Source of the DNA: Cordilura impudica
Lineage: Eukaryota > Arthropoda > Insecta > Diptera > Scathophagidae
Length of the DNA stretch: 64,000 bases
Reading direction: 5' to 3'
NCBI GenBank assembly: GCA_963682025.1
Contig: OY821517.1
Location: 25,897,620 to 25,961,619, forward strand
Shown here: positions 18,641-51,000 of the stretch, piece by piece
Position numbering within the stretch: position 1 is the stretch's first letter
Layout: every line of letters starts with the position of its first letter
Made by a program: the position numbers and the translations under genes
The notes under the pieces: model-generated
What the model saw: only the letters and a program-made list of their open reading frames with translations
What the model was told of the DNA's origin: nothing
Database searches by the model: none

Positions 18641-19395
18641 CGTCAGTCCGTTTATCTCCAGTATTCGAAATTTGCAATCAATATATGATTGTTGATTCAA
18701 GTACGAAAAACATAGTATTAGTAAAAAATAATAATAAACAGAACCTCCCATTGTTAGAAAAGCTATTAAAATCTATTGCAGTTTTCATTTTTAAAAAGTT
18801 TTTGAAATGTTTTAATAAATATGAAATATTCAAAAAATAAAAACCCATATTTTCATATCAAAATTAAAAAAATAAAAATAAAAATCATTACGCTATTGTT
18901 CAGCAAATTTATTTTGCTAAAATTAACAAATATGGCAGCAAAAAATAACAAATTTTTCCGTAGTAATAGCAAAGTTTTAAGATAATATTACCAACTTTTT
19001 TAAGTGTAAATATTCTATGAGTGTAAACAAATTTGGAAATTTGACATCAAAATTTTTTTAATTTTTCAGTAATTATAGCAAAACTTCCAGTTGATTTTAC
19101 AATTTTTTTTAGTGCAAAATTTTTTTTGAGTGTAAACATTTAAAAAAAATGTTTATAATAAATATTATTATAATCCAAATATGACATTTTTTAATAAATA
19201 AAAAAACTCCACATTTCACGTTAAAAGATACAAAAAAGTTCAACTTTGACCTAGAATTTCTTAAGAAATACGCAAGAAATACGCAAGTTCAACTAAATAG
19301 CTATTCATTAAAAAAAAAAAAAAATACTAAAATATTTTGATCGGTTTAAAAGTTACAGAATTTTGGACAATGAAAATCGATTTTCAGCCACTGTG

Positions 19396-19811
19396 CGGCG
19401 TTTAAACTGATTACATGTTATTTTAATGAATAGCAAAATATTGTTTCCCCAGCAATTTATAATTTAATAGCCAAATTACCTAGGTTGATGCAAATGAGAC
19501 CCTGGTAGAGACAGTGTTAAATAACATAATTTAGAATATAAAATTTAGTGTCATAATATGTTTATGGCGTAGACAACCAAATATGAAAAATATTTGATAA
19601 GAATGGCTGTGCGAAAGAAATTATGATTTCGGAAAAATATCAATTAAGATACAATAACAACACCGTTGGTTGATCAAAGATCGTACTTATTGAACGCAAA
19701 TACCAACAAAATTGCTGACGAACAAAAGCGACCATATTTCACCATACTATTAGTAGGTTGATAAATATATAGGCAAATATTTGGTCCTCGAAAATACTCA
19801 ATTATACGTCG
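19396..19811. other. Spacer between Transib elements T1 and T2
   Basis: Non-coding. It begins with the right CGGCG target duplication of T1 and ends with CGTCG (19807-19811), the presumed target site of T2. Confidence 0.5.
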
Positions 19812-22171: not shown

Positions 22172-23432
22172 TATATAGGCTTATGCTAACATACCTAAAA
22201 ATTTACCTGTTCCCTTCATACATATGGATTTAGGCTGAATTATGCAATTTTGATATTATGCTCGTGTCTAAATAAGATTTTTGCCTACCTGGAGGGACCA
22301 TAAGTCAATATTGTTCTTGACCATTTGTACTCCAAAGTAATTTTTAAGTGAGGTGCGTACCTGCGAATTTCAATGAGTAGTTTTTTCTGCATCCTGTGGT
22401 TGTAACAGAATATTGGGAGTAGACTTTGGCGAGGCTCACAGGTAGACAACCGACTTAAAATGTCTGTCTGTCAAAACATGTAAGGGATGCACGCCATACA
22501 ATTTCTGCAACCATGTCTTTTCTAACCTTTTTACCTCTACAAGCCAAACGGGCACGTACGGGCAGTTAAAACCTTACATATATAAGAGGCCTCCTTTGAA
22601 AGATGAGACATTTCTGAGAGGGCTTCAATGACTTACTAAAGATTATAACATTTTTTGTTCATAAAAGGTGTATTTCAAGAACATAAATTTGATATTAATA
22701 TTAATTTAATATTCTATTAACAGAGAATCAATGTAAATCATGTAAACTCCTGTTATTGAACGGTCTGAACATTATGAAATTTTTGGGTATTCAAAGGTAC
22801 AAATTTTAACCAACTAGCCTATAGTAGGGCAATAAGGCAATTAGTCAAAACACATTCTGTTTACCCAAAATTATTTATAGCATCACATAAAAATAAATAA
22901 ATATTAACTCGCAAATTGAATATTTATGCGATTGTATGACCAAGTAGCAGAAAAATACTTAGTGAACTTGTCGATCAAAGTTAAACGTATTTGCTTTTAT
23001 TTGTATTATATTTAGTAAGACCAAAATTCACTCTTATCGCAACTGCTACTAACCTAACATTTAGATGCCCATTAAAATAATCAATAAGTTAAGTAATATT
23101 TTCGGCTATATCAAATTTCGTATATGTCCACTGTACCCGTTATGTATAAAATATGCTCACCTAATAACACAGTGTAACAGCCATTCCAGGGGGTGAGAAA
23201 ATCCAAGTCAGGGTGAAATTACTAAGCTAGTATAGAAAATACCTCCAAAGGGTTTGCCGTCCCAGGCTGAACTTTTTTTTAGGAAATTTTATATTTATTT
23301 AGTTTTTTGGCTATAATTCAAGGTGATGATTTATCATTTTATTCTGCAGCAAAATTGTAGCTAAGACTTAAATAAATATTTTTTCTTATATATCCGCGAA
23401 AAAAATCAAGTTCGACTTATTTTATCGAATAA
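22172..23432. other. Upstream flank of T2, no gene assigned
   Basis: Probably holds the 5' untranslated part and end of T2. Short minus-strand frames around 22440-22640 show residues such as EVKKVRKDMVAEIVW but stop quickly and could not be assigned. A CACAGTG occurs at 23168-23174 without a matching GC-rich duplication. Confidence 0.4.
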
Positions 23433-23685
23433 AGGTGCGTTCAGACTACGCAAATATTTGACCAAATAAACGTAACCCCTAAATAATGTATAATTTTCCT
23501 TGTATAATTTTCATTAAGTTATACAATATATGATATAGAATATAGTTAAATATATTAAATATTACTAATGTAATAAAACATAACTTAATTTTGTCTTTTA
23601 TATATCATGTAAGATTGAATAAAACTTTCATAAAATTAGGGGTTACGTTTATTTGGTCAAATATTTGCGTAGTCTGAACGCACCT
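23433..23685. mobile_element. MITE with perfect 50-bp inverted ends, TAA target duplication
   Basis: The first 50 bases (starting AGGTGCGTTCAGACTACGCA) and last 50 bases are exact reverse complements. The element is flanked by TAA at 23430-23432 and 23686-23688. Length is 253 bp, with no coding. A 3-bp TAA duplication is typical of PIF/Harbinger, so that is the likely superfamily. Perfect ends indicate a recent insertion. Confidence 0.88.
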
Positions 23686-24694
23686 TAAGATCTTCAAAAA
23701 ATTGTCATCCCCCTTTTTATTAATAAATTTTCGCCAATAACTACAAAAAATAACGTCAATAAAATACGTTATTTTTATTTTGAAAAAAATAATTTCTTTG
23801 TGAAAAATTATGGGTTTTGCTTATGAGTTCTACGCTACACGGTGGCTGAAAATCGTTTTTAATTGGCCAAAATTCTGTAACTTTTGAACCGATCAAAATA
23901 TTTAAGCAATTTTTTTTAATGGATAGATATTTAGTTCTGCTTGACTCAGTTTTAATTACATTAAAATTGATTGATGACTTTTTAAGGAATTCTAGGTCAA
24001 AGTCGAACTTTTGTTTTTTTTTTTACTTTTCGTGTGAAATATGTGTTTATTATTTTTTTATTTTATTTATTAAAAAATTTAATATTTGGATTTTAATAAT
24101 AATTATAAACATTTTTTGTAATAATGGGATTTTTTTAATGTTACATTCAAAAAAATTTTACACCAAGAAAAAAATATATGGGTTAAACCATCTGAACTCA
24201 ACTTAAAATATGGCTGTTTTTTACATCACTGTTTCCAAATTGGCTGAATTTTGGCAGGATTAAAGTGTATCCGAGAAATAAGAAAAATCCTAAATTTAAG
24301 TTCACTGACGCATCTGGATCCGGAAATATGAGGTCTTGAATATCGGGAAAAACTATAAAAATGTACAAAGTTGTACTTACTTAATTATCATTTTCTTGAT
24401 TAATATTATAGTGACGCAACTTATCAAGGTCGCATTTGAAAGGTTAATTAATTACCTTTAATTTGATATACAACATGATTTTTTTTTGGAAAGGTCAAAG
24501 GTCACATCTCTTGACATATAATTCGGGAGGCTATAGCTGTAAAAACGACAATTTTAAAAATCTGAAAAAAATATATATTTAAGATTGGTTCCTTCCCTAA
24601 AGTTCCAAAAAATTTCAGACTGGGGGTATGCTTGGATCCAGAAATCTTTATCATAGAGTAAAGGTAGATATTTAACAAGTGAATTATTATTATT

Positions 24695-24741
24695 ATGAAT
24701 GCTGTTGTTGTTGGCGTTGTTGACATTATTATGATGAATGC

Positions 24742-24787
<46 letters not shown>

Positions 24788-24916
24788 GGCGTTGTTGACA
24801 TTATTATGATGAATGCTGTTGTTGTTGTTGTTGTTGACATTATTATGATGAATGCTGTTGTTGTTGTTGTTGTTGTTGTTGACATTATTATGATGAATGC
24901 TGTTGTTGTTGTTTAG
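24695..24916. repeat. Minisatellite of GTT runs and GACATTATTATGATGAATGC
   Basis: Blocks of (GTT)n alternate with the 20-mer GACATTATTATGATGAATGC, present four times with GTT runs of different length between. On the minus strand it reads as Asn/His/Ser-rich (NNNSIHHNNVNN) and directly follows the end of the transposase-like frame. It looks like an expansion at the 3' end of the element's gene. Confidence 0.9.
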
Positions 24917-26962
24917 TTTTATTATAAATGTTTTCAATTACAAATTTTCTATCAGCGGAATAAATTTTAGCTTGTAATTGTGTTTTTGAAATTGGTATGA
25001 AGCTGTGCTGCTTTTGAGTTCCCGGAATTGTACGTAATCCTATAAATCTATCAGTTAGCAATTTCTCTTCTTCTTCATAATCTTTTTCCGTTAAATATGC
25101 AAAGTTGCAGTTCTGAAGAGTTTGCTTACACCAATTATACAAGTGGAGAGGAGTAGTTATCTGATCTTCGAATGGACGTTGCAAGCTGGCTCTTCGTGCT
25201 TCACGCTTTACCGTTCCCCCAAGACCATCACTAGGTCCTTTGCCGTGACTGGTAGCAAAGAAATGCCACTCAGCGGAACAATTAAAATCTTCGCTATGAT
25301 GGCATAAATTGGCAAAGTTTTTTTTATTTTTAAATTGAGCGGAAGAACCGTCCGAAAAATAAAAAATTTTCTTTGGTATTTTCAAAAACTTGTTTTTTAA
25401 AAACTCATTTAGGTGGCGATGAAATAAATGAACTGCTATGGTCTTATGTATTAGACAGTCTGATATTATTATAAAATTTGTAGTTTCTAATTTTCCATTT
25501 GATTTGTAATAAATTGCTATTGGGTATAGTGTGGCCTGGCTATTATTCCATAAAAAGCCTTGCACAGAATCCTGAACCACAAAAGTTGCATTTTCGGAGA
25601 AGTCGCAAATTACTAAATACTCATTTTCTTCCAACGCAGACTTTTTGTGAGCCATAAATGCACCCTGCTCTTTAGATACGAATGAATGGGGTAGAAGAGT
25701 TTGCAGTTTTTCGCATAAAGAATCCAGAAAAGAATCAGTTTCTTTAATAATAGTTTCCAAGGAGTCTCTATCTACACTTATTCACTGTTTATATATGATT
25801 TCATCAATTTCATTTTCTAATAATAATTCACCAAGTTTCTCTTTAAAATTTTGTATATCTGGACACATGCTACATCTGCCAAGGTAGCAATTTGGTGATG
25901 GGGGATTGCATATAAGTCTTTTTAAACAATCTTTATAAGTTTCCAGCACAAAATCTGCACATTTTCTGTAAATTTTTTCAGGTTTATTGCGTTGAGCATT
26001 AGTTTTGTATTTTGATGTATTTTACAAACACATACATTATGGCTTCCTGACGCATCTGCTAGAACCACATTTTTTGGCCGAAGTTCAAAAAATTTAGAAA
26101 TTCCAATAGTTATCCCTTCATGTTTTTCTTTAAATAAAGCATAAACTTCTCGAAGATTTCCGAGTAAAAGTCTTTTATTTTTTTTTTACTTTTACACCAT
26201 TTTCTGTTATTGACACGTAGTCTTTACATCCTGCTAGACATCTGCTGACATCATCAGTTTCATAAAAGATTTTCACCACATCAACAATTTCTAATGGCAA
26301 TCGTTTTCCAAGTTTTGGATTCGGTGTACTCAATACGCCTTCTGTCTCAACCAAGTTTTTTACCTTTCGTGCCATGAAATTTGTTATTTGAATTCCTCCT
26401 CCAATCTTTTCAATGTCCAGCTTTTAGGTAAAATAGTTAAAAGTTGAATTTTATCACTGTTTTTAGTTATTGATTTAAACTTTTCTTTTAGTTGTTCGAT
26501 TATTTCCGATTCTGGGCATACGTGAGAGTTTGAAGGTGTTGAATTTGGGAAAATGTAGGTTTTAATTGATGTTGTTATTTTTTCTAACTTTCTAGTTGTA
26601 TACCCTTTTAATGGAATTTTTCTCGAACATATTGGAGATTCTTGTAAATATGTTAAACTTTCGTTTAACTTAGAAATTCGAACATCTCCCGAAACTGATG
26701 CTTCACTTTCCGAGTCTGAAGTCTCGTTTTCTGGCTCGTTCATAGATTGAATATTATTGTTTACACTTCCTTTTAATTTATAAAGTTCTCTTCTGCATAT
26801 ATCACATATTTTATTTGATATTGAAATGTTATTACTAATTCCAGTCATCCATTGCTGAACTTTTCGAAGTCCTCTTGCATTCCGGACATGAGCAACTTTT
26901 TTAAATGGATTACAACAATATATTGTATTAAATGACATATTGTTTACAGAGGCAAAAAACAA
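24888..26962 (-). pseudogene. Decayed transposase-like protein of the long-IR element
   Basis: Three frames form one protein. 26962-26384 has an N-terminal CxxC-type segment (KICDICRREL) and an acidic linker, ending in TILPKSWTLKRLEEEF. 26375-26175 continues MARKVKNLVETEGVLS. Broken sequence to 25770 shows FELRPKNVVLADASGSHNVCVCKIHQN and CNPPSPNCYLGRCSMCP. 25760-24888 holds IFYFSDGSSAQFKNKKN, then EWHFFATSHGKGPSDGLGGTVKR. I recall the same string of motifs in many unannotated arthropod proteins, but I cannot name the family. The Asp of FSDGSS and of GPSDGLGG are candidate catalytic acids (inference). Stops and frameshifts near 26380, 26165 and 25770 inactivate it. Confidence 0.7.
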
Positions 26963-28138
26963 TCACTTTGAACACTTTTGGTTTTATTTAAAAATATTGA
27001 TTTTATAGCAACACATGCGGTTTTTTAAAGCAACGTGCTTAGAATGGTTTTTTTTTGTGGTGCTTCCTTTGACTTCTCTTTTTTCAATAATTTCTCTATA
27101 TCCAAGTTATTTGACACTACGAACCACACCCGACAACAATTATACTGTTGTCTCGCTCTAACATAATTACCTGTCAAACCAACCCTAACACAGGTCTGTA
27201 CTGAGTACAGTACAGAGCTAAAGAACCAGAAACAAATAGCGGCGTGCGTGCATAGCCCGCCGACGCTCACGAGCACAACCAACCACATTTATAAACAGTA
27301 ACAGTAACAGCACCGACTTTTTAAATATCTACCTTTACTCTATGATAAATATTTCTGGATCCAAGCGTACCCCCAGTCTGAAATTTTTTGGAACTTTAGG
27401 GAAGGAACCAATCTTAAACATATATTTTTTTCAGATTTTTAAAATTGTCGTTTTTACAGCTATAGCCTCCCGAATTATAGGTCAAGAGATGTGACCTTGG
27501 ACCTTTCCAAAAAAAAAATCATGTTGTATATCAAATTAAAGGTAATTAATTAACCTTTCAAATGCAACCTTGATGAGTTGCGTAACTATAATACTTTTCA
27601 AGAAAATTATAATTAAGTAAGTACAACTTTGTAAATTTTGACCTTTTTTACGATTTTCAAGACCACATATTTCCGGATACAGAAGTGCCAGTGCCCTCAA
27701 ACTTTGCACTTATTTTAGTTCTGTAATAATCTGTCTTCCTACGAAAAATCATACAATTTGGAGAAGGTAGTGTACACCCATTGGTTGATTTGACATGGAA
27801 TTACCCATATTAAAATCAACTGGAGATTTTGCTATTATTACTGAAAAATTAAAAATTTTTTGTTGTCAAATTTGCAAATTTCTTTAAACTCAAAGAATAT
27901 TTACACTTAAAAAAAAAAAAAAAAAAAAACGTTAATAATATTATCTTGCTATTACTACAGAAAAATTTATTCTTTTTTGCTGTCAAATTTGATAATTTTA
28001 AAAAACATTATAAAAATAAAAACTGCAATAGATTTTAATTGCATTTGTAACAATGGTAGGTTATGTTTATTATTATTTTTTTTTTTACTAATACTATGTT
28101 TTTCGTACTTAAATAACAATGAAAGGCAATTATAATTA

Positions 28139-28760
28139 TTATTCATTTGACTCAAATATTGATTGCAAATATTCCATATGTTGTTCTGTGTTATTTCTGT
28201 TCTTTAGTAGTTTTTTGACTTCTTCATCTAAATCCCGATGTTCCACTTTCCATTGATTTCGAATACTGGAGATTAACGGATCTGACGTTGCCAATAATAT
28301 ATTAAATAGATCTTCATTTGTGGAATATCGTGAAAATTTTGTAGTATTATGCTCTCCATAAAATCTGTAATCCTTATTCCTTTTTTCCTGAGCCTCCTCT
28401 GATAGATCTCCAAGTGGCACCAAATGATATTTAATGACGTCTTCTCCATGATAAAGGATTTTGTGAACTGTTGCAGACATATTTCTCCATGGGTAGTTGG
28501 TTGTATATATTTTTGTAGTTTCCTTAGCATAATCTCCAAATTTTCTAGAGTCAATTTCTTCATTGCACGCAAGTATTTCTAGGATTATTTAAAATCTGAA
28601 AATAAGGTTTAAATTCACTCCTGTTATTTCAGATGCTGTTTCTGGATCTGAAAAGAATCTTCTTGCGATATTGTCATCATTTGTATTGCCTGACTCTTGT
28701 TTTGGCTGATCTATAATCAATCCAAATTTGCGATATTCATCTTGAACATGTTTCTTTTAT
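28139..28760 (-). pseudogene. RAG1-like Transib transposase C-terminal half in T3
   Basis: The minus strand gives GNTNDDNIARRFFSDPETASEITGVN (28745-28600), the counterpart of the second catalytic Asp region, then a stop. It continues ALKTLEN-like frame and, at 28480-28139, TVHKILYHGEDVIKY, LSEEAQEKRNKDYRF and NEDLFNILLATSDPLISS. The zinc-binding His pair is present as HKILYH. At the position of the catalytic Glu the motif reads QEKRNK, so the Glu may be kept. Several frameshifts make it a pseudogene. Confidence 0.82.
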
Positions 28761-29965: not shown

Positions 29966-30590
29966 TATACCCTATACCACTATGTGGTCAGGGTATAATG
30001 ACTTTGTGGTGATGTTTGTAACTACCAAAAATATTTACTATACCGATCGACACAGAATCACTTTCTGAGTCGATTTAGCGATGTCCGTCCGTCCGTCCGT
30101 CTGTTCTGTTGTAATCAAACTACAGGCAACTATGAATATATTTTTATGAAATTTAGTGTATAAGCTTCTATAGCATGAATGGTATTGAAATTGGTGAAAA
30201 TCGGTGCATGTTCAGACCTAATCCCTATACAAATGACCCCTATTAAACTGACTTAAATTGCCGTAAGATTCAAATTATCTTATACATCTCGGTCAAATTT
30301 GATTTGTGTGTGTTTATTACACCCATTAATCAGTAGTCCAAAAATAAACCGTATAGGACAATTCTTAGTCATAGCCCCCATATAAAGCTGCTTCCCGATC
30401 TTCACTTAAATTTATCAAAAAACAAAAATATTGCAAAGATTTTTCTGAAATTTGGTTTGTATATGTTTTTGTAAAAAATAAGTGACATTACCAAATATAG
30501 TCAGGATCGGATCATTTTTTGACCTAGTCCCCATATAAATATAGCATCCGATATGAAGTTTTTCATAGACCGACTACAATTTTCTTACTT
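29966..30590 (+). repeat. GTCCGTCC repeat, copy f
   Basis: Begins TTTTTATACCCTATACCACT and follows the family order. It has lost about 100 bp near the 3' end, so that GATATGAAGTTTTTCATAGACCGACTACAATTTTCTTACTTC joins the middle directly to the tail. It abuts the Helitron, and its tail forms the left arm of the palindrome that follows. Confidence 0.75.
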
Positions 30591-30783
30591 CTTCATTTTT
30601 AAATAGTGAAAAAAATTTAAGTCTAATAAGTAGTAGTTTTTTTTTTTAGAGAGCCTTTACAAAGGTCTTTTTTTCACATAAATCTCTAAAAAAAAAACAC
30701 TACTTATTAGACTTAAATTTTTTTCACTATTTAAAAATGAAGAAGTAAGAAAATTGTAGTCGGTCTATGAAAAACTTCATATG
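30551..30783. repeat. Near-perfect palindrome, arms ~100 bp
   Basis: Left arm 30551-30651 and right arm 30683-30783 are reverse complements; the outer ~84 bp match without a mismatch, after which only the length of a T/A run and one base differ. The loop is about 30 bp and contains CCTTTACAAAGG. The left arm includes the last ~40 bp of GTCCGTCC copy f, so the duplication copied part of a repeat plus adjacent DNA in inverted orientation, as in template-switch or fold-back repair. Confidence 0.9.
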
Positions 30784-40800: not shown

Positions 40801-43800
40801 ATCTTGCTCGGATTATTTTATATTTCCACAAAAAAAAAAAAAAAAAAAAAACTGGCTCATTGGCAAAAGAGGTGAGAGACAGTTCTCACATCGAAGTTAT
40901 TGAATGTCGCTAGGAAAAGTGTATCGAGCTAGAGATTACGTTGTGTTTTCTTTGTCAGGTCGGGTTGTTCTGGGATCACCCTCGTAATTGATATTATTTT
41001 TATTTTAATATAATTTTATAACTTCATTTTTTAAAATAAAGTAAAAACAAGTAAGAAAATTATAGTCGGTCTAGACCGCATTTAGAGACCCTATCTCTTA
41101 AGTCCAACTAATTAGGTATAGAAAATAAGCATAAACCAAATTTGAATGGCATTGTTATTAATTTTTTGACTTCGAATATGAACAAGTTAATATCGAATGC
41201 TATATTTATATGGGGAATAGATCGAAAAATGGACCGATCACTTATTTTATTTTTTTTTTTTTGCAAAATTGTATACAAACCTAATTTGAGAAAAATCCGT
41301 GTAATATTTTTGCTCTTTGATCGATTTAGTGAAGATCGAGAATCAGCTTCATATGTGGGCTATGACTAACAATTGTGCTATAGGATTTATTTTTGGACTA
41401 CTGATAAATGGATGTAATAAACATACACAAACCCAATTTAACCGAGATCTATATGATAATTTTGATATTATGGCAATTTAACTCGATCTGATAGGGGTCA
41501 TTTGTATGGGGACTTGGTCTGAACATGAACCGATTTTCACCTCAGAATCACTTTCTGAGTCGATTTAGCGATGTCCGTCCGTACGTCCGTCTGTCCGTCC
41601 GTCTGTCTGTCCATGTAAATCTTGTAATCAAACTATAGGTCCCATAGGATGAACGCTATTGAAATTGGTGAAATTCGTAAGGGGTCCCTTACAAATGACC
41701 CTTATGAAATCGACATAAATTGCCATAAGATCCAAATTATCATATAGATCTCAGTCAGTATAATCCCTACAGGACAATTCTTAGTCATAGGCCCCATATA
41801 GAGCTGCTTCCCGATCTTCACTTAAATCAATCAAAAATATTGCACAGATTTTTCTCAAATTTGGTTTGTATACATTTTTTCAAAATATAAGTGACTTTAC
41901 CAAATATGGTCAGGATCGGTCCATTTTTCGACCTAGTCCCCATATAAATATAGCACCCGATATGAACTTTTTCATATCTGCAGCCAAAAAAATTAATAAC
42001 AATTGCACTCAAATTTGGTTTATGCTTATTTTCCATATCCAATTAGTTAGACCGGAGAAATAGGGTCTCTAAAGCATGTTATATAGTATCGTATAGTCGG
42101 TCTAGACCGACTATAATTTTTTACTTGTTTTTTTTTTTTTTTAATTACTACACGTTTTGCTTGTGGTCCGTAATACATAAACAGGCCCTTGCTATTACTG
42201 TTATTAAAACATATATGTAATATCAGAAAAAAATTCTTATCAATGTACCGCAACGCAATTTTATGTTACCATTTGGAAAACAAAATAATAATTTTGATTA
42301 AAAAATTAATTTAATTAAGTTATATTTGTTACTAAGTATATGTGGCTCTAATATTTGAAAAAATTTATTTATGACTTTTAAAATATTTTTCGTTCTAGCG
42401 ATAATCGTCCGCCACTTAAACCATTTTAAAAAAGCTTTCAAGCCTAAAGTAATTTTCGTGCATATAAACATTATAAAAATCTGAGTTTGAAAATTTTTTC
42501 AGGCTCAAGATCAAATGTTTGTACTTTATAATAAAAATCTATTATAGACTTGAGACAACTGGATTGTAATGTCAATTTGTTCACTTTTCTTTGCGATTTT
42601 ATTTCCCTACTCTAAAAAGAGGTCAATTTGTTATCAGCCCATTTCAGTTAAAGTCGCAGCTTTTCATTAAAATTTTTCAAGACTTCGGAAATATTACAAA
42701 TACCCGAACATTCTTAACATTTTATACATACAATTTTTTTATGTTTAAACATAATTTCTTCTCAGTTTCAAAGAACGTGGAGCCCGTTATGCTTTACTCT
42801 GTCTAACAGAAGAGCAAAAGAAAATCGGTGTTATTTCAGCATCGCTCGGAAATCATGCACAGGTAAATTTGTTTAGTTTATTTTTAGCAAGGATTTTCAA
42901 AATGTATAACTTTTTTTTTGAATTCCAGGCTCTCAGTTATCATGGTTGGAAATTAAATATCCCCGTTACTGTAGTTATGCCAAAGGCCGCTCCCATTATG
43001 AAAGTACAAAAATGCAGAAACTACAAAGCCAATGTCTTAGTAGAAGGCAACGATATGGCTGAGGCAAAAGCTGTCGCCTTAAAAATGTCTCAAGAGAAAG
43101 GTTTACTATACATAAACGGTTATGATCATCCTCATATTATGGCTGGACAGGGTACTATAGGCTTGGAGATTTTGGAACAAGTTCCAAATCCAGATGCTGT
43201 TATAATACCCGTAGGAGGTGGTGGTCTAATAGCAGGTATAGCAACGGCCATAAAAGCTCTATCACCAAAAACTAAAGTTATCGTAAGTATAGAAAATGTG
43301 TTTTTTTTTTTTTTTTTTTAATAAAGTAAATTTAATAAAAATTCTTCTTTCTATTTTCTAGGGTGTTGAATCGGCAAAATGTCCTAGTTTTTCCAGGGCC
43401 ATTGAAAATAATGGCCCTGTGCACACTCCTATAAAAAATACATTAGCCGATGGTTTAGCTGTCCCTAAGGTGGGCTGCAATGCTTTTTGTACAGCTGTTC
43501 CTTTAATCGACAAAATGGTAGTGGTAAAGGAAGAATGGATAGCTCTGGCTATCTTACGTTTGGTAGAAGAAGAAAAGTGTGTCGTAGAAGGAGCTGGTGG
43601 TGCAGGTTTTGCGGCAATTTTGGCTGGTCAATTGACCGAACTTAAGGGTAAAAGGTAAGTGTTGTGATTTATGAAAATTAGTTGATTAAACTCAAATAAT
43701 TTTATTTGATTTGCAGAGTAGTCGTATTATTGTGTGGTGGCAATATTGATACTACAGTTTTTGGCAGATGTCTGGAGCGAGGTTTGGCCGCTGAAGGTCG

Positions 43801-44138
43801 TTTGGTTAAATTTAATGTGGAAGTATCTGATAGACCAGGTGGTATTCATGAATTGGTTGAAATACTCTGCTCATTGGGTGTGTCCATTAAAGATATTATG
43901 CATGAACGGGCTTGGCTAAGAGACATCTATACAGTAGAGGTAAACGGATTTTTTTTATCACGAAACAGTTTTTATATCTTAATATCATTGTTAATATTTT
44001 TTATACCATTAGGTGAAAGTAATTTGTGAGACCAGAGACTGGGGACATAGCATGGAATTGAAAAATAAACTAAAATCACACTATTCCGTAGTACAATTTT
44101 GCGAAGATCCTTTAGCTATACCTGAACAATATGAGTAA
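31617..44138 (+). CDS. Serine/threonine dehydratase (ammonia-lyase), 7 exons, 478 aa
   Basis: Fold-type II PLP enzyme that deaminates threonine (and serine) to a 2-keto acid and ammonia. Exons: 31617-31889, 31943-32013, 42766-42862, 42929-43282, 43362-43654, 43717-43939, 44013-44138; every intron is GT-AG and the phases join exactly. Exon 1 ends in ERTPCP and exon 2 in LQYTG; the Ser of the PLP motif SFKERGARY (Lys117) is made by the exon 2/3 junction. Further motifs are SASLGNHAQ (139-147), GQGTIGLEI, the phosphate loop VGGGGLIAG (Gly243-246) and VEGAGGAG. Residues from about 392 form an ACT-like domain (FNVEVSDRPGGIHELVEIL). The residue before GNH is Leu, not the Ser of serine racemase, so dehydratase is favoured. 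The likely Drosophila counterpart is CG8129 (from memory). Start: first Met of the exon, context AAAATG. Confidence 0.93.
31943..32013 (+). CDS. Dehydratase exon 2
   Basis: 71 nt between ACTTAG| and GGCAG|GTAAAT. It reads RSTSSDTYEMDLYLKKDFLQYTG plus two bases of the Ser codon preceding the PLP-binding lysine motif. Too short to show up as an open frame; found because it bridges exon 1 and exon 3 in phase. Confidence 0.88.
32216..35057 (-). mobile_element. hAT transposon, young, with 8-bp target duplication GTCTAAGC
   Basis: Left end CAGTGCTTCTCAAACT and right end (inverted) CAGTGCTTCTCGAACT are hAT-type terminal repeats. GTCTAAGC flanks both sides exactly (32208-32215, 35058-35065), the 8-bp duplication characteristic of hAT. 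The 2,842-bp element carries one transposase gene on the minus strand. A C-rich tract near the left end (32278-32297) is unusual. The exact duplication points to recent insertion. Confidence 0.95.
32484..34455 (-). pseudogene. hAT transposase (ZBED5/SCAND3-like), one +1 frameshift
   Basis: Two overlapping frames make one ~655-residue transposase. The first (34455-33343) has a BED-type zinc finger region (CVICFTQL...LLRHLTTLH, about residues 90-120), then the RNase H-like core with FAIQIDESTD and CVGLCTDGAAAMTG. The second (33350-32484) has LLYHTEVRWLS and the C-terminal hAT dimerization region (LIPFATTYLCETAFSSLLVLKNKHRS). Between them, a run of seven A at 33371-33377 region shifts the frame; with six A the reading is NFVKNRAVNSRLFNISCKEMG. 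Otherwise no stop interrupts it. It belongs to the group annotated ZBED5, SCAND3 or FAM200 in animals. Confidence 0.92.
35066..35829 (+). other. Intronic sequence, nothing supported
   Basis: AT-rich intron sequence between the hAT element and the LINE. No element ends or coding similarity seen. Confidence 0.4.
37155..39437. mobile_element. Transib-type element T4, non-autonomous, TSD CGTTG
   Basis: Both ends read inward CACAGTGCGTCGT, followed by TTGATGGACAAAAAT or the near match. CGTTG flanks each side (37150-37154, 39438-39442). Taking the 2,283 bp out together with one CGTTG restores an uninterrupted LINE frame (RRALVLFSDSRVCNSIDSLEHRR). There is no transposase. The interior contains long AT-rich repeats and, at 38930-39340, three loose direct repeats built around TATGGGAGGTACCAGAA. 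Confidence 0.88.
38970..39310 (+). repeat. Three direct repeats around TATGGGAGGTACCAGAA inside T4
   Basis: TGTATGGGAGGTACCAGAAG (38972), TGCATGGGAGGTACCAGAAT (39130) and TGTATGGGAGGTACCAGAAG (39286) start units about 155-160 bp apart that share further words such as GAAAGTTTGGTTGAAATT and GACACAGTTTTT. They look like an internal subrepeat of the element and are non-coding. Confidence 0.7.
40068..40984. mobile_element. Chimeric mariner: outer element with an inverted mariner piece inside
   Basis: The outer ends are inverted repeats CGAGGGTGGTCCCATAACTA / CGAGGGTGATCCCAGAACAA, each next to TA, so this is a mariner footprint of 917 bp. Near the right end the plus strand still reads a mariner tail (LFHYTPYLSCSDYFIF, then EVIECR and EKCIELE). 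The middle (about 40180-40772) is part of another mariner in minus orientation (VQKIHKMVLDDRRLKLREL, MRKKSARWVQRLLTIEQK, LTPEAKEQSKQWTEMGKPCPKKTK), with its 5' terminus at 40722-40772. All frames are broken. Confidence 0.75.
41046..42128. repeat. GTCCGTCC repeats, copies g1 and g2, head to head
   Basis: 41046-41540 is a minus-oriented copy beginning CAAGTAAGAAAATTATAGTCGGTCTAGACC; at CTCAGAATCACTTTCTGAGTCG (41543) the sequence switches to a plus-oriented copy that ends GTCGGTCTAGACCGACTATAATTTTTTACTTGTTT. Both lack their 5' ends, and the tails form ~35-bp inverted ends for the pair. Confidence 0.8.
42766..42862 (+). CDS. Dehydratase exon 3 (PLP-lysine exon)
   Basis: Begins with the third base of the Ser codon, then FKERGARYALLCLTEEQ with the Schiff-base lysine and ends SASLGNHAQ at the donor CAG|GTAAAT. 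97 nt; in phase with exons 2 and 4. Confidence 0.92.
42929..43282 (+). CDS. Dehydratase exon 4
   Basis: 118 codons from ALSYHGWKLNIPVTVVMP to SPKTKVI. Holds the GQGTIGLEI segment and the tetraglycine loop PVGGGGLIAG that grips the PLP phosphate. Acceptor TTCCAG, donor ATC|GTAAGT. Confidence 0.95.
43362..43654 (+). CDS. Dehydratase exon 5
   Basis: Starts GVESAKCPSFSRAI and ends GQLTELKGK plus AG of an Arg codon. Contains VEEEKCVVEGAGGAGFAAIL, the substrate-domain core of the family. Acceptor TTTTCTAG, donor AAAG|GTAAGT. Confidence 0.95.
43717..43939 (+). CDS. Dehydratase exon 6 (start of ACT-like domain)
   Basis: Completes the Arg codon, reads VVVLLCGGNIDTTVFGRCLE (end of the catalytic domain) and then the ACT-like VKFNVEVSDRPGGIHELVEI. 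Donor GAG|GTAAAC. Confidence 0.95.
44013..44138 (+). CDS. Dehydratase exon 7 (C-terminus)
   Basis: Reads VKVICETRDWGHSMELKNKL and ends DPLAIPEQYE, then TAA at 44136-44138. It completes the ACT-like domain. The acceptor is CATTAG. Confidence 0.92.
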   Translation: MKVICETRDWGHSMELKNKLKSHYSVVQFCEDPLAIPEQYE

Positions 44139-44157
44139 CTTTTAGCATAAGGCATAA

Positions 44158-44169
44158 AATAAATTTATT
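44158..44169. terminator. Palindromic poly(A) signal serving both convergent genes
   Basis: AATAAATTTATT is its own reverse complement and supplies AATAAA on each strand. It lies 20 bp after the dehydratase stop and 118 bp after the radial spoke stop. No other AATAAA at a suitable distance was seen for either gene in the 148 bp between them. Confidence 0.65.
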
Positions 44170-44286
44170 TACATATAAAAAACAATGTCATGTTTATCAA
44201 TAATAAATTATTTAATATTTTGTTTGTAAGATTTAAAATAATCAATTGTTGTTTTCATATTTCTTCTGCACTCCTGCTGGCTCCTC

Positions 44287-45011
44287 CTAGTCATCATCAT
44301 CATCATCATCATCATTTTCGTTTGATTCATGTGTTGAATTTTCATAGTCACTTAAGTGTTCGCCCATATCATTCAGCTGTCTTTCTTTTTTAATTAAACT
44401 CAAACGATAGGCTTCTTCCATTTCAATGCTGGGATCAGAGGCTTCTATGAAATCAATTGGCGCATGTGGAAATTCCTCAGCTATAGGAGCCAAATGTTGC
44501 CACTTCATATTGCGGGCAACAAATTTATGACCCCAACCCAAGTATATGGATTCACAAAGATTTTCAAATATAAATGTAAAAGCACCGGGCCACACATTAG
44601 ATTGCATCATTAAGATACGTTCATTTTTATTAGTAAATCTACTTGTGAAACGTCCTACCCATGAAACTGGCGTTTCTTCATTTGTATCGCTTGAACAGGG
44701 TGTTAACATAGCTGGTCCTTTTTCACGAAGATCTTCTAACTCTTCCTCCTCACCTTCATCCTCGTCGTCTTCATATTCTTCATCTTCTTCTTCCATAAAT
44801 TCTTCACCCATTAATTCAAGCAAACGCAACTTTTCTAAACGTTTACGTTCTTTTTCTCTTTCACGACGTGCTTTTTCTTCGTCATACCAAACGACTCGTC
44901 CTTGCACAAGTATATTTGGTCGTACATGTACCCATTTTGCTGGACTGTTTAATTGATTTAAAGGAACGCTGCTATCATATTTTTCATTTTTCAGCAAAAC
45001 AATATCATTAT
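44287..45011 (-). CDS. Rsph4a: Radial spoke head exon 3
   Basis: 241 codons after the acceptor CTTCTACAG. It opens [20 protein letters not shown], has an Arg/Lys/Glu-rich helix and an acidic block, then the conserved C-terminal part. Stop TAG at 44289-44287, right behind an (ATC/GAT) run coding for at least eight Asp. Confidence 0.94.
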
Positions 45012-48000
45012 CTGTAGAAGAAGACAAAATATTATCAGCATTATTTAGTTTAAAATTTACTAAACTTAAAGAACTTTTAAAAAATTCCTCGATTAAGTAG
45101 CAATAAGTTGAAGTACCACAATTGAAACGATTAACAGAATTAAGTTTAAATGGAACAATTATGAATGAAAACTATGATAAGATTAAGCTTTTGGGAGTCA
45201 GTTTAAACTTAAGTTTCTAGTGCTAAAAAAGTGAGTTGAACTAAGTTAGTTAAACTGTGCTATTGGAGATTCTTAAAAAAAAAACATCAGAATAAGAATC
45301 AGCAACACCGGTGTAAATCAAATCACCATTGTGGAGCTTGACATTATTAGTGGTAAATTGCTTATAACGTTTTGTCATAAGCAAGGCTGTGTAGTCATTA
45401 TTGCACGTACATGAAAAGTTCAAAGAATTTCTAAAATATTTGAAAGACAAAAAAAATATTCTTCGAAATTGGGGACGTAATATTGTACAGATATATAAGT
45501 AGATTTTAATTTATTTTATGAGAGTAAGTTCATTCAAGTACTTAAATTAAATAATATAAAGGTGTTTCATAATTTAAAATATTTTGGAATTTTATTATTT
45601 ATTATAGTATAGCCCAGCACTCGAAATTCGAGTGCAAGTTCTAGGAAATGTTATTTTTCGTACAATTTGTTTTCAATGTTTTTTTAATCTATATATATAT
45701 ATATAAAAATTTATGAATATTTAAATGAGCCTACAGGTATGCTAATCAATTTTAGTAATTCATAATTCAACACAGAGCGTTGATATAAAATTTAAATCAT
45801 TCGCATTAACAGGGTGTAACGAATTATTATAAATATTTTATATTAGTTAATATAATATATTTTTAAGACATATTATACATAAATTTTATCATCTCAGCTT
45901 CTCCTCCATATGAACTATAACTATGCCAATTTTCACACTCCTCCGTACCCGCATATTGCTTGAAAAGGGAACTAAAAATTTAGCTTCACGTATTAATATA
46001 TAGATTAGTGCGGGCAAGAGTCTAAATTGCATTAGCAGAACTTATACTCTGTTAGTGATCAAGTTGAAAATAGATGTTTGTGGTTTTTTAAGGTTTGGGG
46101 TTAATTTAATTGAATTTGAACAATATTCAGCATAAAATTAAAATTAATTTGTTTGTGTTAGAAAATATTATAGTTCAATTAAAAAAAAAAAAAAAAAAAA
46201 ACAAATGGTTTAATAATGAGAAAAAGTTGATAAATATCAAATAGCAATAATCCAAAATACAAACGAAGCTTGGGAAAACTACAAATCGATTAGAAATTTT
46301 TATAAAACAAAAATTTAAAACGAAAAGAATAAATACATTAAACACAATATAAATGATGCCAAAGACCAAAAAGAAATGTGGAAGGAAATAAAAAACTTTA
46401 TACTAAAATAAAGCCCAACTGTGATTCATTCTGTGATAACCAAATGGAATGTAAAGAACATTTTGAAATGGCCAATAACTTTAACAATTATTTTGTAAAT
46501 AGTATTAAGAATATAAGAGATGAAATAAATAATGTGCAATATATAAACAAAATTCCTGTGATAAACTGTAATTTCAAATTTCGCGCAATAAATGTAAATT
46601 AATTAAAAAGTATATGTACAAATTTAAAAAATAAACCAGACTACAATAAAATGTCCAGTAAAATCATACTAATGGATGTAATATAATAGGAAAAACAATG
46701 CTATATATAAAAATAAGTCACTACGGAATTGGAAGGAGTCTATGGTAACTCCTTTTGAAAAAATTGCAAAAAGATCAATTGGAGCAGTATATGGAAACAA
46801 ATAACTTATTATCCAAATACCAATCGGGATTTAGGAAGAAATATTCATCCGAAACATCAGTCAATTACCTAATAGACAGATAGAAAAAAAATAGAAAAAA
46901 TAGAAAAATCGTTGCAATATTTTTTGACTTTACATGAGCATTCGATACGATAGACAGAACCATATTACTTAAAAAATTGTATGAATACGGCGTCCGGGAT
47001 ATAAAACTGAAATGGTTTAAAACATACCTAGCAAACAGAAAACAAATCACGAAAATAAATAGAATTAAATCTAGAGAAAAAAAACACACACACTGAATAA
47101 AAAACTCGTACATATATGTAAACAAACACATATTTTTATTTTCATATCAATTATGTGTGTTTCTAAATTTTGTACTTTGCCCAACACAATCATAAATGTG
47201 TTTCATTTTAATACTTGACTGTGAACACGAATATGTTTCTATAACGTATTGTATTATTCGAACACACATAAACCACACAGTTTCGAGTGTAGCTATATTT
47301 TAAGTTCGTGTTCTGTTCGTGTTCTAAAAAAAAAACAAGTAAGAAAATTATAGTCGGTCTAGACCGACTATACGATACCCTATACCATGCGTTTAGAAAC
47401 CCTATCTCTTAGGCCCAACTAACTAGACATTGAAAATAAGCAAAAACCAAATTTGAGTGGGATTTTTATTAATTTTTTTTTGGCTGCAGATATGAAAACG
47501 TTCATATCGGATGCTATATCTATAAAGGGACTAGGTCCAAAAATGGACCGATCCTGATCATGTTTGGTAAAGTCTCTTGTATTTTGCAAAAATATGTACA
47601 AACAAAATTTGAGAAGAACCAGTGCAATATTTTTGTTTTTTAATAGATTTAAGTAAGATCGGGAAGCAGCTCTATATGGGGTCAAAGGGATCATTTTTGG
47701 ACTACTCATTAGTAGATGTAATGAACGCATACAAACCCAATTTGAGTAAGATCTATATGACAATTTGGATCTTATGGCAATTTATGTCGATTTCATATGG
47801 GTAATTTGTATGGGGGCTAGGTCTGAACATGGACCGATTCTCACCAATTTCAATAGCGTTCATCCCATGACCGACAAAAGCTTATATACCAAATTTCATC
47901 AAAATATATTCATATTTGCGACCTGCAGTTTGATTACAAGCTTTACATGGACACACAGACGGACGGACGGACGGACGGACATTGTTAAATCAACTCAGAA

Positions 48001-51000
48001 AGTGATTCTGATTCGATCGGTATAATTAAAGATGGGTCTAGGTCAAATATTTTTGGTTGTTACAAACAGCAGCACAAAGTCATTATACCCAAACCACATA
48101 GTGGTATAGGGTATAAAAATATAATAATAAAAATAAAAAAATAATAAAAATAAAAAACTAATAATAAAAAAACGAAAATAATTCATAAAAATAAGATTAA
48201 ACTGTTGTTATTCACTGAACTTCAATCTGTTTATTATTCACGAACTTAAAATAAAGCTACACTCGAACATGTGTATTGTTCATGTTCATGTTTATAGCTA
48301 CACTCGAAACTGTGTGGTTTATGTGTGTTCGAATAAAACAATACGTGATAAAAACATGTTCGTATTCAGAATCAAGTATTAAAATGAAACACATTCTGAT
48401 TGTATTCTTCAAAGTACAAAATTTAGAAACACACATAATTGACATGAAATTAAATTTATTTGATGTGTGTATTTTCTGAACCTTGATAATATATAATAAT
48501 TATGGATTACCACAGGGATCAATCTTAGGAGCATTATTATTTATCATATACATTAATGACATGCCAAACATAGTGGATAATTGTGAAATAATATTGTATG
48601 CAGATGATACACCAATTTTTACTGAAACAGATTTAGATACTCAATGCTACGGCAAACTTAATCAAGACATGGAAAATGTTGAGTGGCTAAAAATGAACAA
48701 ACTAAAATAAACGAAAACAAAACTAAATTAATGGAAATTAATATGAACACACACATAACATTCAAAATAATTAATGCAATAATAGAAAAAGTAGATAATA
48801 TCAAATATTAAGGATTCTTAATAGACAAAAATTTAAAATTTAAAGATCATGTTGAATACATGTATAAGAAAATTGACAAGAATATCGGGTTTTTTAAACG
48901 TTTAAGAAACAAAGTAACAATAATAACTGCAGTAAATATCTATAAAACTATGATAAAACAGCATTTTGAGTATGAAGTCAACCGTATTATTTTCATGCTG
49001 TTCAGACCAACAAATAACTAGGCTGCAAAAACTACAAAATAAAGTTATGCGCATAATTTTAAAATGCAATCGATTTTCGTCAATAAGATATATAGTAGAC
49101 ACACTGAAATGGCTAAACATCCAGCAAAGGCTCCAACTTAACATAATATTTTTTATCCAAAAAAATCAAAATGGGAAGAGCACCAGATTGATCGAACAAA
49201 TAAGATATGTTAGAGAGGTTCACCTTATAACCTTAGGAATGCCTTAGACTTTAGACCACAGCAAGCAGATACCACAGCAATGCAAAAATCGTTATTTTAC
49301 AAAGGATTGAATCTTTACAATGTGATGCTGAATGATGTCAAGAACGAAACAAATGTAAATCTTTTTAGAAAAAAAAACTGTAAATTTTATTAAAAATGTT
49401 AACTTTTGATCTGAGTATATAATAATATTTTGTTAAATTAATATGAAATGCATTTTAAAAGTATTTAAATACTACTGATAATAAACTAAACTAATATTAT
49501 ATCGCACCTGTACCTCTAAAGTGAGCCAAATAAAATTTTTCAATTTTCACTTTTTGCAAGAAAACGATACACAGTGGTCATATTTATCCACTGTAAAAAT
49601 CTTACATCGGTTTTTCTAGTCTTTCGCAAAAAAAAAAACACAGTTGTAACCCTCTTTGCGTTATAACAAAAGCTTCTTTAGAATCCACTAAAAAGACATA
49701 TTTTAAGTTGCACCCATAAAACTTGTTATTTTTGATGATCACTAAAAAAATCGCAAAATCTACTGTTGTATACTTATTATTCGCAATTCTTTACAATGAA
49801 ACAACTGTTTTTAAATTTTATAGTAAATATTAAAAAAAACCGTTTTTAGCCTCTACTGAAAATTTGTAAATTTTGAGTTGACTTATTTTAGAGGTACAGG
49901 TGCGATATATTATGGGTATGGTGTTTTAGTTAATTTCTTATTAAAAAAAAAGAATTACATTGAAAACTGAAAGTCTAAGTGGAGTTAAAGTTTCATTTGA
50001 GTAGCTGTTGGCATACAAATAATTAATTTGAACTCCAAATATTTAATATAATTTTATTTTTTTTTTTTAAATAAAAATTAAAGAAAATTTAGACGGGCAG
50101 AGGCAGTCCAAGCATATTCGCCTAAATTTAGTGGAAAATAGCGGAGACACAGAACCTCCAACAGTCTTAGCTATATTTAAAATACATTTTTACCAGGAAT
50201 GAAAGGAAGCAAAGAAATTTAACCGTTCTTCAAGTTTAGCAAAAAAGATGCAATTCCAGGAATTTTATTGACGACTCCACAGCCCTGTTATGCGTTTTTT
50301 ACAAAGACTTCAAAAATACCTCTCGTACAAAAAAGAGAGTTAAGTCGTAAACATTTACGTGCGTTGATTTCTATGAATACTCAACAACATTATGTCGATC
50401 AACTCGCTTTGACTGTTGGTGATGAAGCACCATCCTATCGCTGCTTTTCCGAATTGAATCGTGGACATCGTTCACTCCAGAAAGATTTTTGTGAAGGCCG
50501 TCTAAAATCGGTTGTTGTCCCAGAATATATCGATGCTGTGCGGGAACTAATGTTACATGATCGTCTTGTGAGCATTAGGCAATCTATAACATTAGTTCAA
50601 TCCCAAACAATTAGTAATATATGAAAAATCGCTCAAAATAGGTTTATGTCTATTGATCCAAAAAAAAATATTGAAAAATTTTGATCGCGGTGCTTCAAAG
50701 AAGTCTACAGGCGACAAATCTTGGATCAGTGCATATGAATCTGAAACTAAACAGCAGTCGACAGCAGCAATGGCAACCTTCTTCCAAGAAAAAAGCGTAA
50801 AACAGTACCCCAAAAAGCGCTTAAAGGCTCTAAATTAGAATGAAAGTAATAGCGCTAAAAAAACACTAATTATATGTTTATAAAAAATTAAAATAATTTT
50901 TATTAACTCTCAAAAAAGTTCAATATTATTTGTACATCTAAGACCATTTAGTATTTAATGAAACGTTTTGAAGTGTATATCAGACATGTAACCTAAATAA

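Follow-up and report, generated by a model that had tools for sequence, protein, structure and literature searches.

A damaged transposon with long inverted arms in Cordilura impudica, probably from a new Sola2 family

Background

A 64,000-nucleotide stretch of the genome of the dipteran Cordilura impudica (assembly GCA_963682025.1, contig OY821517.1, positions 25,897,620 to 25,961,619; hereafter the window) carries, between positions 24180 and 27806, a DNA transposon with very long inverted ends and a broken transposase gene. To which group of transposons does it belong, and how did its ends come to be better conserved inside than at the tips? An earlier note, made from the sequence alone, had called it an unclassified DNA transposon, flanked by ATAT duplications, inserted into a copy of Transib, and encoding a decayed protein whose motifs it linked to unannotated arthropod proteins. 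Our analysis of its genomic copies, target sites, arms and protein relatives indicates that it is probably a decayed copy of a young family of about 550 autonomous cut-and-paste transposons of Sola type, most likely Sola2.

Results and discussion

The element and its copies

The element is 3,627 bp long (GGGT...ACCC); the first G stands at 24180 and the last C at 27806, and the boundaries proposed in the earlier note are exact to the base. In own-genome searches, which cover the 1.486-Gb assembly, the 37 bases of the left tip were found with at most two mismatches at 550 places (reversed control, 0), and exact 23-base tips were found 481 times for the left end and 468 times for the right (controls, 0). 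Forty copies were compared, namely the window copy and 39 others fetched with their flanks, chosen as the left-end matches with the highest scores among 1,312 first-look candidates. The central region of 30 near-full-length copies differs from the majority by a median of 0.7%, a value that may be a low estimate because copies were picked by left-end similarity, and a full-length frame is kept in two of the 40 (682 and 683 amino acids). The window element looks like a damaged member of a young and recently active family. The right tip was located in 33 of the 40 copies, which make up the table of 33 pairs used below; those left out (L013, L018, L023, L025, L031, L040 and L044) have no right tip within the fetched stretch, and in L044 the left end is also broken.

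With the element taken out and its flanks brought together, the resulting sequence matches across the junction all 40 genomic places that were scored (2,475 first-look candidates); 37 of the matches run over bases 1-600 and the remaining three over 2-600, 1-598 and 11-600, and the junction was read directly in three places. The neighbouring frame matches the solved structure 6PQN, whose record is titled 'DNA-mediated transposase' and which we take to be a Transib transposase. Together these observations confirm that the transposon jumped into another element, presumably a Transib copy, so the mobility asserted in the earlier note holds. An inverted similarity in three pieces (77-90%) links positions 19158-19401 of the window to 23832-24106 and may reflect a further copy of the end region of Transib.

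Target-site duplication

Insertions in the table of 33 pairs were taken regardless of flank, and 32 of them have identical 4 bp on both sides (31 ATAT, one ACTT); L036 is the sole copy with differing flanks. A second sample, drawn from contig 1, consisted of 20 insertions chosen for a left tip without ATAT in front of it and an exact right tip close by; each of them carries the same four bases on both sides, of a sequence other than ATAT, and a match of 5-8 bp occurs in none. The duplication is therefore 4 bp long, and ATAT is a preferred target lying outside the element, not element sequence. The ATAT duplication of the earlier note is thus borne out in 31 of 33 sampled insertions, and the tabulation of its length over many insertions, suggested there, gives 4 bp in both samples. 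ATAT precedes 336 of the 481 exact left tips, and the 20 other duplications comprise three ATTT (which fits AWWT), eight more made of A and T only, and nine containing G or C (down to ACCC). Moreover, of the 33 pairs, 27 have a pyrimidine next to the left duplication and 28 a purine next to the right one, which makes the favoured target a palindrome, YATATR.

These duplications bear on whether the family belongs to another known superfamily (Kolobok, piggyBac, P, Mutator-like elements (MULE), hAT or Tc1/mariner), which we consider very improbable. Kolobok elements duplicate TTAA, which is found in none of the 52 duplications of the two samples; this contradicts both Kolobok and piggyBac. Galileo and Foldback elements have very long inverted repeats like those described here; the arms of Galileo, however, are internally repetitive and its duplication differs in length. 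Long inverted repeats could indeed point to P elements, with which Galileo is placed (PMC3573991, as excerpted), or to MULE, in which they can exceed 300 bp (PMC10741241). A varied 4-bp duplication nevertheless misfits the sites given in the available parts of the literature: TA for Tc1/mariner (PMC5199201, PMC10741241), TTAA for piggyBac (PMC5199201), 7-12 bp for MULE (PMC10741241) and 7-8 bp for P (PMC5199201, PMC10741241). Tc1/mariner is ruled out by the length and variety of the duplications, and Mutator by the absence of 5-8 bp matches from the 20 insertions of the second sample.

Inverted arms

The arms are about 490 bp long, and in the window copy their complementarity falls from the inside to the tip (97% over 202 nt, 90% over 145 nt, 73% over 131 nt). 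Taken alone, this copy resembles simple decay, as if the tips had diverged by mutation in individual copies without any homogenisation of the inner arms, an explanation that we find improbable. A consensus was built from 32 left and 32 right arms (the 33 pairs without L029, a 1.6-kb copy), and after pairwise realignment the ungapped identity between the consensus arms is 0.60-0.74 over the outer 125 bp, 0.76-0.96 at positions 126 to 275, and 0.96-1.00 over the inner 225 bp; in the outermost 23 bp, 17 of 23 positions match. Decay of the window copy or of any other individual copy is therefore rejected as the cause: the gradient described in the earlier note is real, but it is a trait of the family consensus. 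Arms of the same side differ little among copies, by about 3% on the right and by about 1% on the left, the latter value being biased low because the copies were the best-scoring left-end matches. In addition, left and right arms diverge on average as much inside one copy as they do from copy to copy in three zones (0.348/0.348, 0.117/0.117 and 0.059/0.060, the third extending beyond the arms), which argues that the unlike tips were already fixed in the progenitor. The 32-copy comparison gave no sign of exchange of sequence between the arms of one copy since then. We infer that, in the progenitor and ahead of the burst, the two inner arms became homogenised or were newly duplicated; a further possible cause, with which the evidence on copy decay is compatible, is unequal constraint in the ancestor.

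On its inner side the left arm is followed by a minisatellite (Table 1), the length of which apparently differs among copies.

Transposase and its relatives

Between the arms lies, on the minus strand, the coding sequence of a protein that frame changes and one in-frame stop split into five pieces; the earlier note had rightly described it as decayed, and the three motifs quoted there lie in minus-strand frames. In an AlphaFold model the core is RNase H/integrase-like, and an Asp-Asp-Asp (DDD) triad (Asp446, Asp530 and Asp571 in the numbering of the relative P0001) is nearly invariant; these features suggest that the protein is most likely a cut-and-paste DDD transposase. The catalytic cores of retroviral integrase, IstA and Metnase are among the closest known systems, but with 7-14% identity among the matches listed, and the last catalytic residue is Asp in this family whereas it is Glu in integrases. 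With members of the family core set as queries, PDB sequence searches found nothing at E<=0.001, and Foldseek runs on the PDB and on viral structures were negative at the same threshold.

When the read-through protein served as query, 521 of 7,992 scored candidates proved to be homologues at E<=0.001, and 120 of them were listed. The best relative, P0001, has an unbroken frame of 676 amino acids and is 91% identical; P0001-P0006 (672-684 amino acids) are without the C-terminal stretch of many longer members. Proteins from Bemisia and the hagfish Myxine are among the matches listed in this search, and those listed for the second and third searches, made with family-majority queries, include Brassicogethes, thrips, Nymphon, Cotesia, Hydra and the sponge Ephydatia. 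In line with the link to unannotated arthropod proteins made in the earlier note, most of the listed relatives are nameless; P0058 is called 'transposase', and others are 'uncharacterized', 'hypothetical' or 'ARL14 effector protein'. The Bemisia protein bears the name 'Cc8L18.2', which was not found in the literature searched. Transposase sequence is also embedded in protein predictions labelled laminin-like, huntingtin, RIMS2 and methionine aminopeptidase (among P0121, P0171, P0243, P0257 and P0241), and in P0241 it stands beside a hAT-type domain; these five are probably gene-model fusions.

In the third search, eight of the 31 listed matches (core identity 40-44%) have a precomputed Ulp1 domain (PF02902), and the four that were rescanned all confirmed it. 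The distant relatives bearing Ulp1 or OTU are P0247-P0254 and P0256, OTU (PF02338) being found in P0247 (49% identical). In a FastTree of selected core domains the Ulp1 and OTU branches join (support 0.99) and form, with an Arctia protein and P0258, a group (0.89) apart from the clade of the window element. The Ulp1 and OTU branches came up with length-shifted protein queries directed at the dictyostelid Sola2 transposase, which itself is not among the matches listed (120 of 140; 31).

No relative is encoded by the 24 pattern-matching stretches of viral contigs or the 17 of prokaryote contigs, and phage records gave no match. The 24 bases of the right tip do not occur exactly in the viral contigs searched; a looser right-tip pattern gave four stretches there, about the level expected by chance according to our estimate.

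Assignment to Sola

According to the available excerpts of the published description, Sola elements have a DDD transposase, 4-bp duplications, a length of mostly 2-9 kb and terminal inverted repeats (TIRs) of 11-1124 bp (PMC10741241). The window family agrees on each point: a conserved Asp triad in a predicted RNase H core, a 4-bp duplication in 32 of 33 and 20 of 20 insertions, 3,627 bp, and arms of about 490 bp. The label 'unclassified' in the earlier note is hence probably too strong, while 'DNA transposon' stands. Sola2-type duplications are described as AWWT, with ATAT, AAAT and ATTT reported (PMC3627910), and ATAT is the commonest site here. The dictyostelid Sola2 elements are described as having TIRs of 12-21 bp and a transposase of 888 amino acids (PMC3627910), unlike the long arms and the 676 amino acids of this family. 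On the basis of the published Sola descriptions, we regard the elements as a probable new Sola2 family.

The same observations could come from a DDD cut-and-paste transposon of a lineage outside every described superfamily, its Sola-like duplication length being coincidental; we judge this unlikely. Several results lean that way. The AWWT target is shared only in part, as 17 of the 20 duplications selected for lacking ATAT are not AWWT. NCBIfam gave no match for eight members, all Pfam matches of the window pieces and of eight members fell short of the curated cut-off, and in a Pfam scan of 58 members the best E was 0.0023, with no transposase among the 25 listed of 71 weak families; Sola is named by none of the listed Pfam or NCBIfam matches. 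Literature searches by family names and terms gave no paper linking these proteins to a named family, and some distant relatives end in a protease domain, Ulp1 or OTU, at the C-terminus. On the other side stand the agreement with the Sola description in DDD triad, duplication, element size and TIR size, and the occurrence of a member, P0237, in Cotesia glomerata, Sola2 being reported as abundant in Cotesia congregata (PMC7822920, as excerpted).

A more elaborate proposal, which we think quite unlikely, is that of an undescribed metazoan DDD superfamily, branches of which gained Ulp1 or OTU, and in which fixed unlike tips and homogenised inner arms would go with functionally distinct ends, one of each being needed for transposition. 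Functionally distinct ends are known from Transib/RAG-like systems.

Under the favoured assignment to Sola2, a single transposase of about 676 amino acids, with a Cys-rich N-terminus, a region resembling a helix-turn-helix (HTH) and a predicted RNase H-fold core, would bind two unlike but related ends and excise the element, rather than copy it. The excised element would then be joined across a 4-bp stagger at ATAT-like targets, leaving the 4-bp duplication. Homogenisation of the inner arms, by gene conversion or fresh duplication, would have preceded the burst.

Widespread animal proteins that are nameless, 'uncharacterized', called 'ARL14 effector protein' or fused to unrelated gene names become probable DDD transposases, and labelling them so would clean up gene annotation. 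The family looks young, retains some full frames, and has a clear 4-bp duplication with an ATAT preference, and, given the fixed difference between its left and right ends, it is well suited to testing whether such enzymes require two different ends.

Features of the window

Table 1. Coordinates of the element, its parts and its host in the window
Feature	Position	Strand	Remarks
Left target-site duplication	24176..24179	.	ATAT
Left terminal inverted repeat	24180..24680	+	tip GGGTTAAACCATCTGAACTCAAC
Minisatellite within the element	24686..24913	.	TTG-rich, variable length
Transposase piece 5	24888..25781	-	probable catalytic DDD core (CDFSEN, FSDGSSAQFKN, SHGKGPSDGLGG)
Transposase piece 4	25782..26021	-	second Cys cluster; terminates at in-frame stop
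Transposase piece 3	25922..26185	-	with RPKNVVLADASGSHNVCVC (Cys/His motif)
Transposase piece 2	26175..26423	-	helical stretch (HTH-like by inspection) and following region
Transposase piece 1	26384..26938	-	N-terminal Cys-rich region (CCNPF...CDICR; putative zinc binding, from motif)
Right terminal inverted repeat	27316..27806	-	tip (reverse complement) GGGTAATTCCATGTCAAATCAAC
Right target-site duplication	27807..27810	.	ATAT
Host element	28139..28588	-	C-terminal part of Transib-type transposase; 6PQN match, E=7e-29

Other repeat structures were also seen in the window. A perfect 51-bp inverted repeat (23432-23482 and 23636-23686, 153 nt apart) is probably a small foldback element or miniature inverted-repeat transposable element (MITE). 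A near-perfect palindrome at 30551-30782 has 100-nt arms, 96% complementary, around a 32-nt spacer, and several nested long inverted repeats with arms of 59-164 nt (84-93%) occupy 41081-48462.
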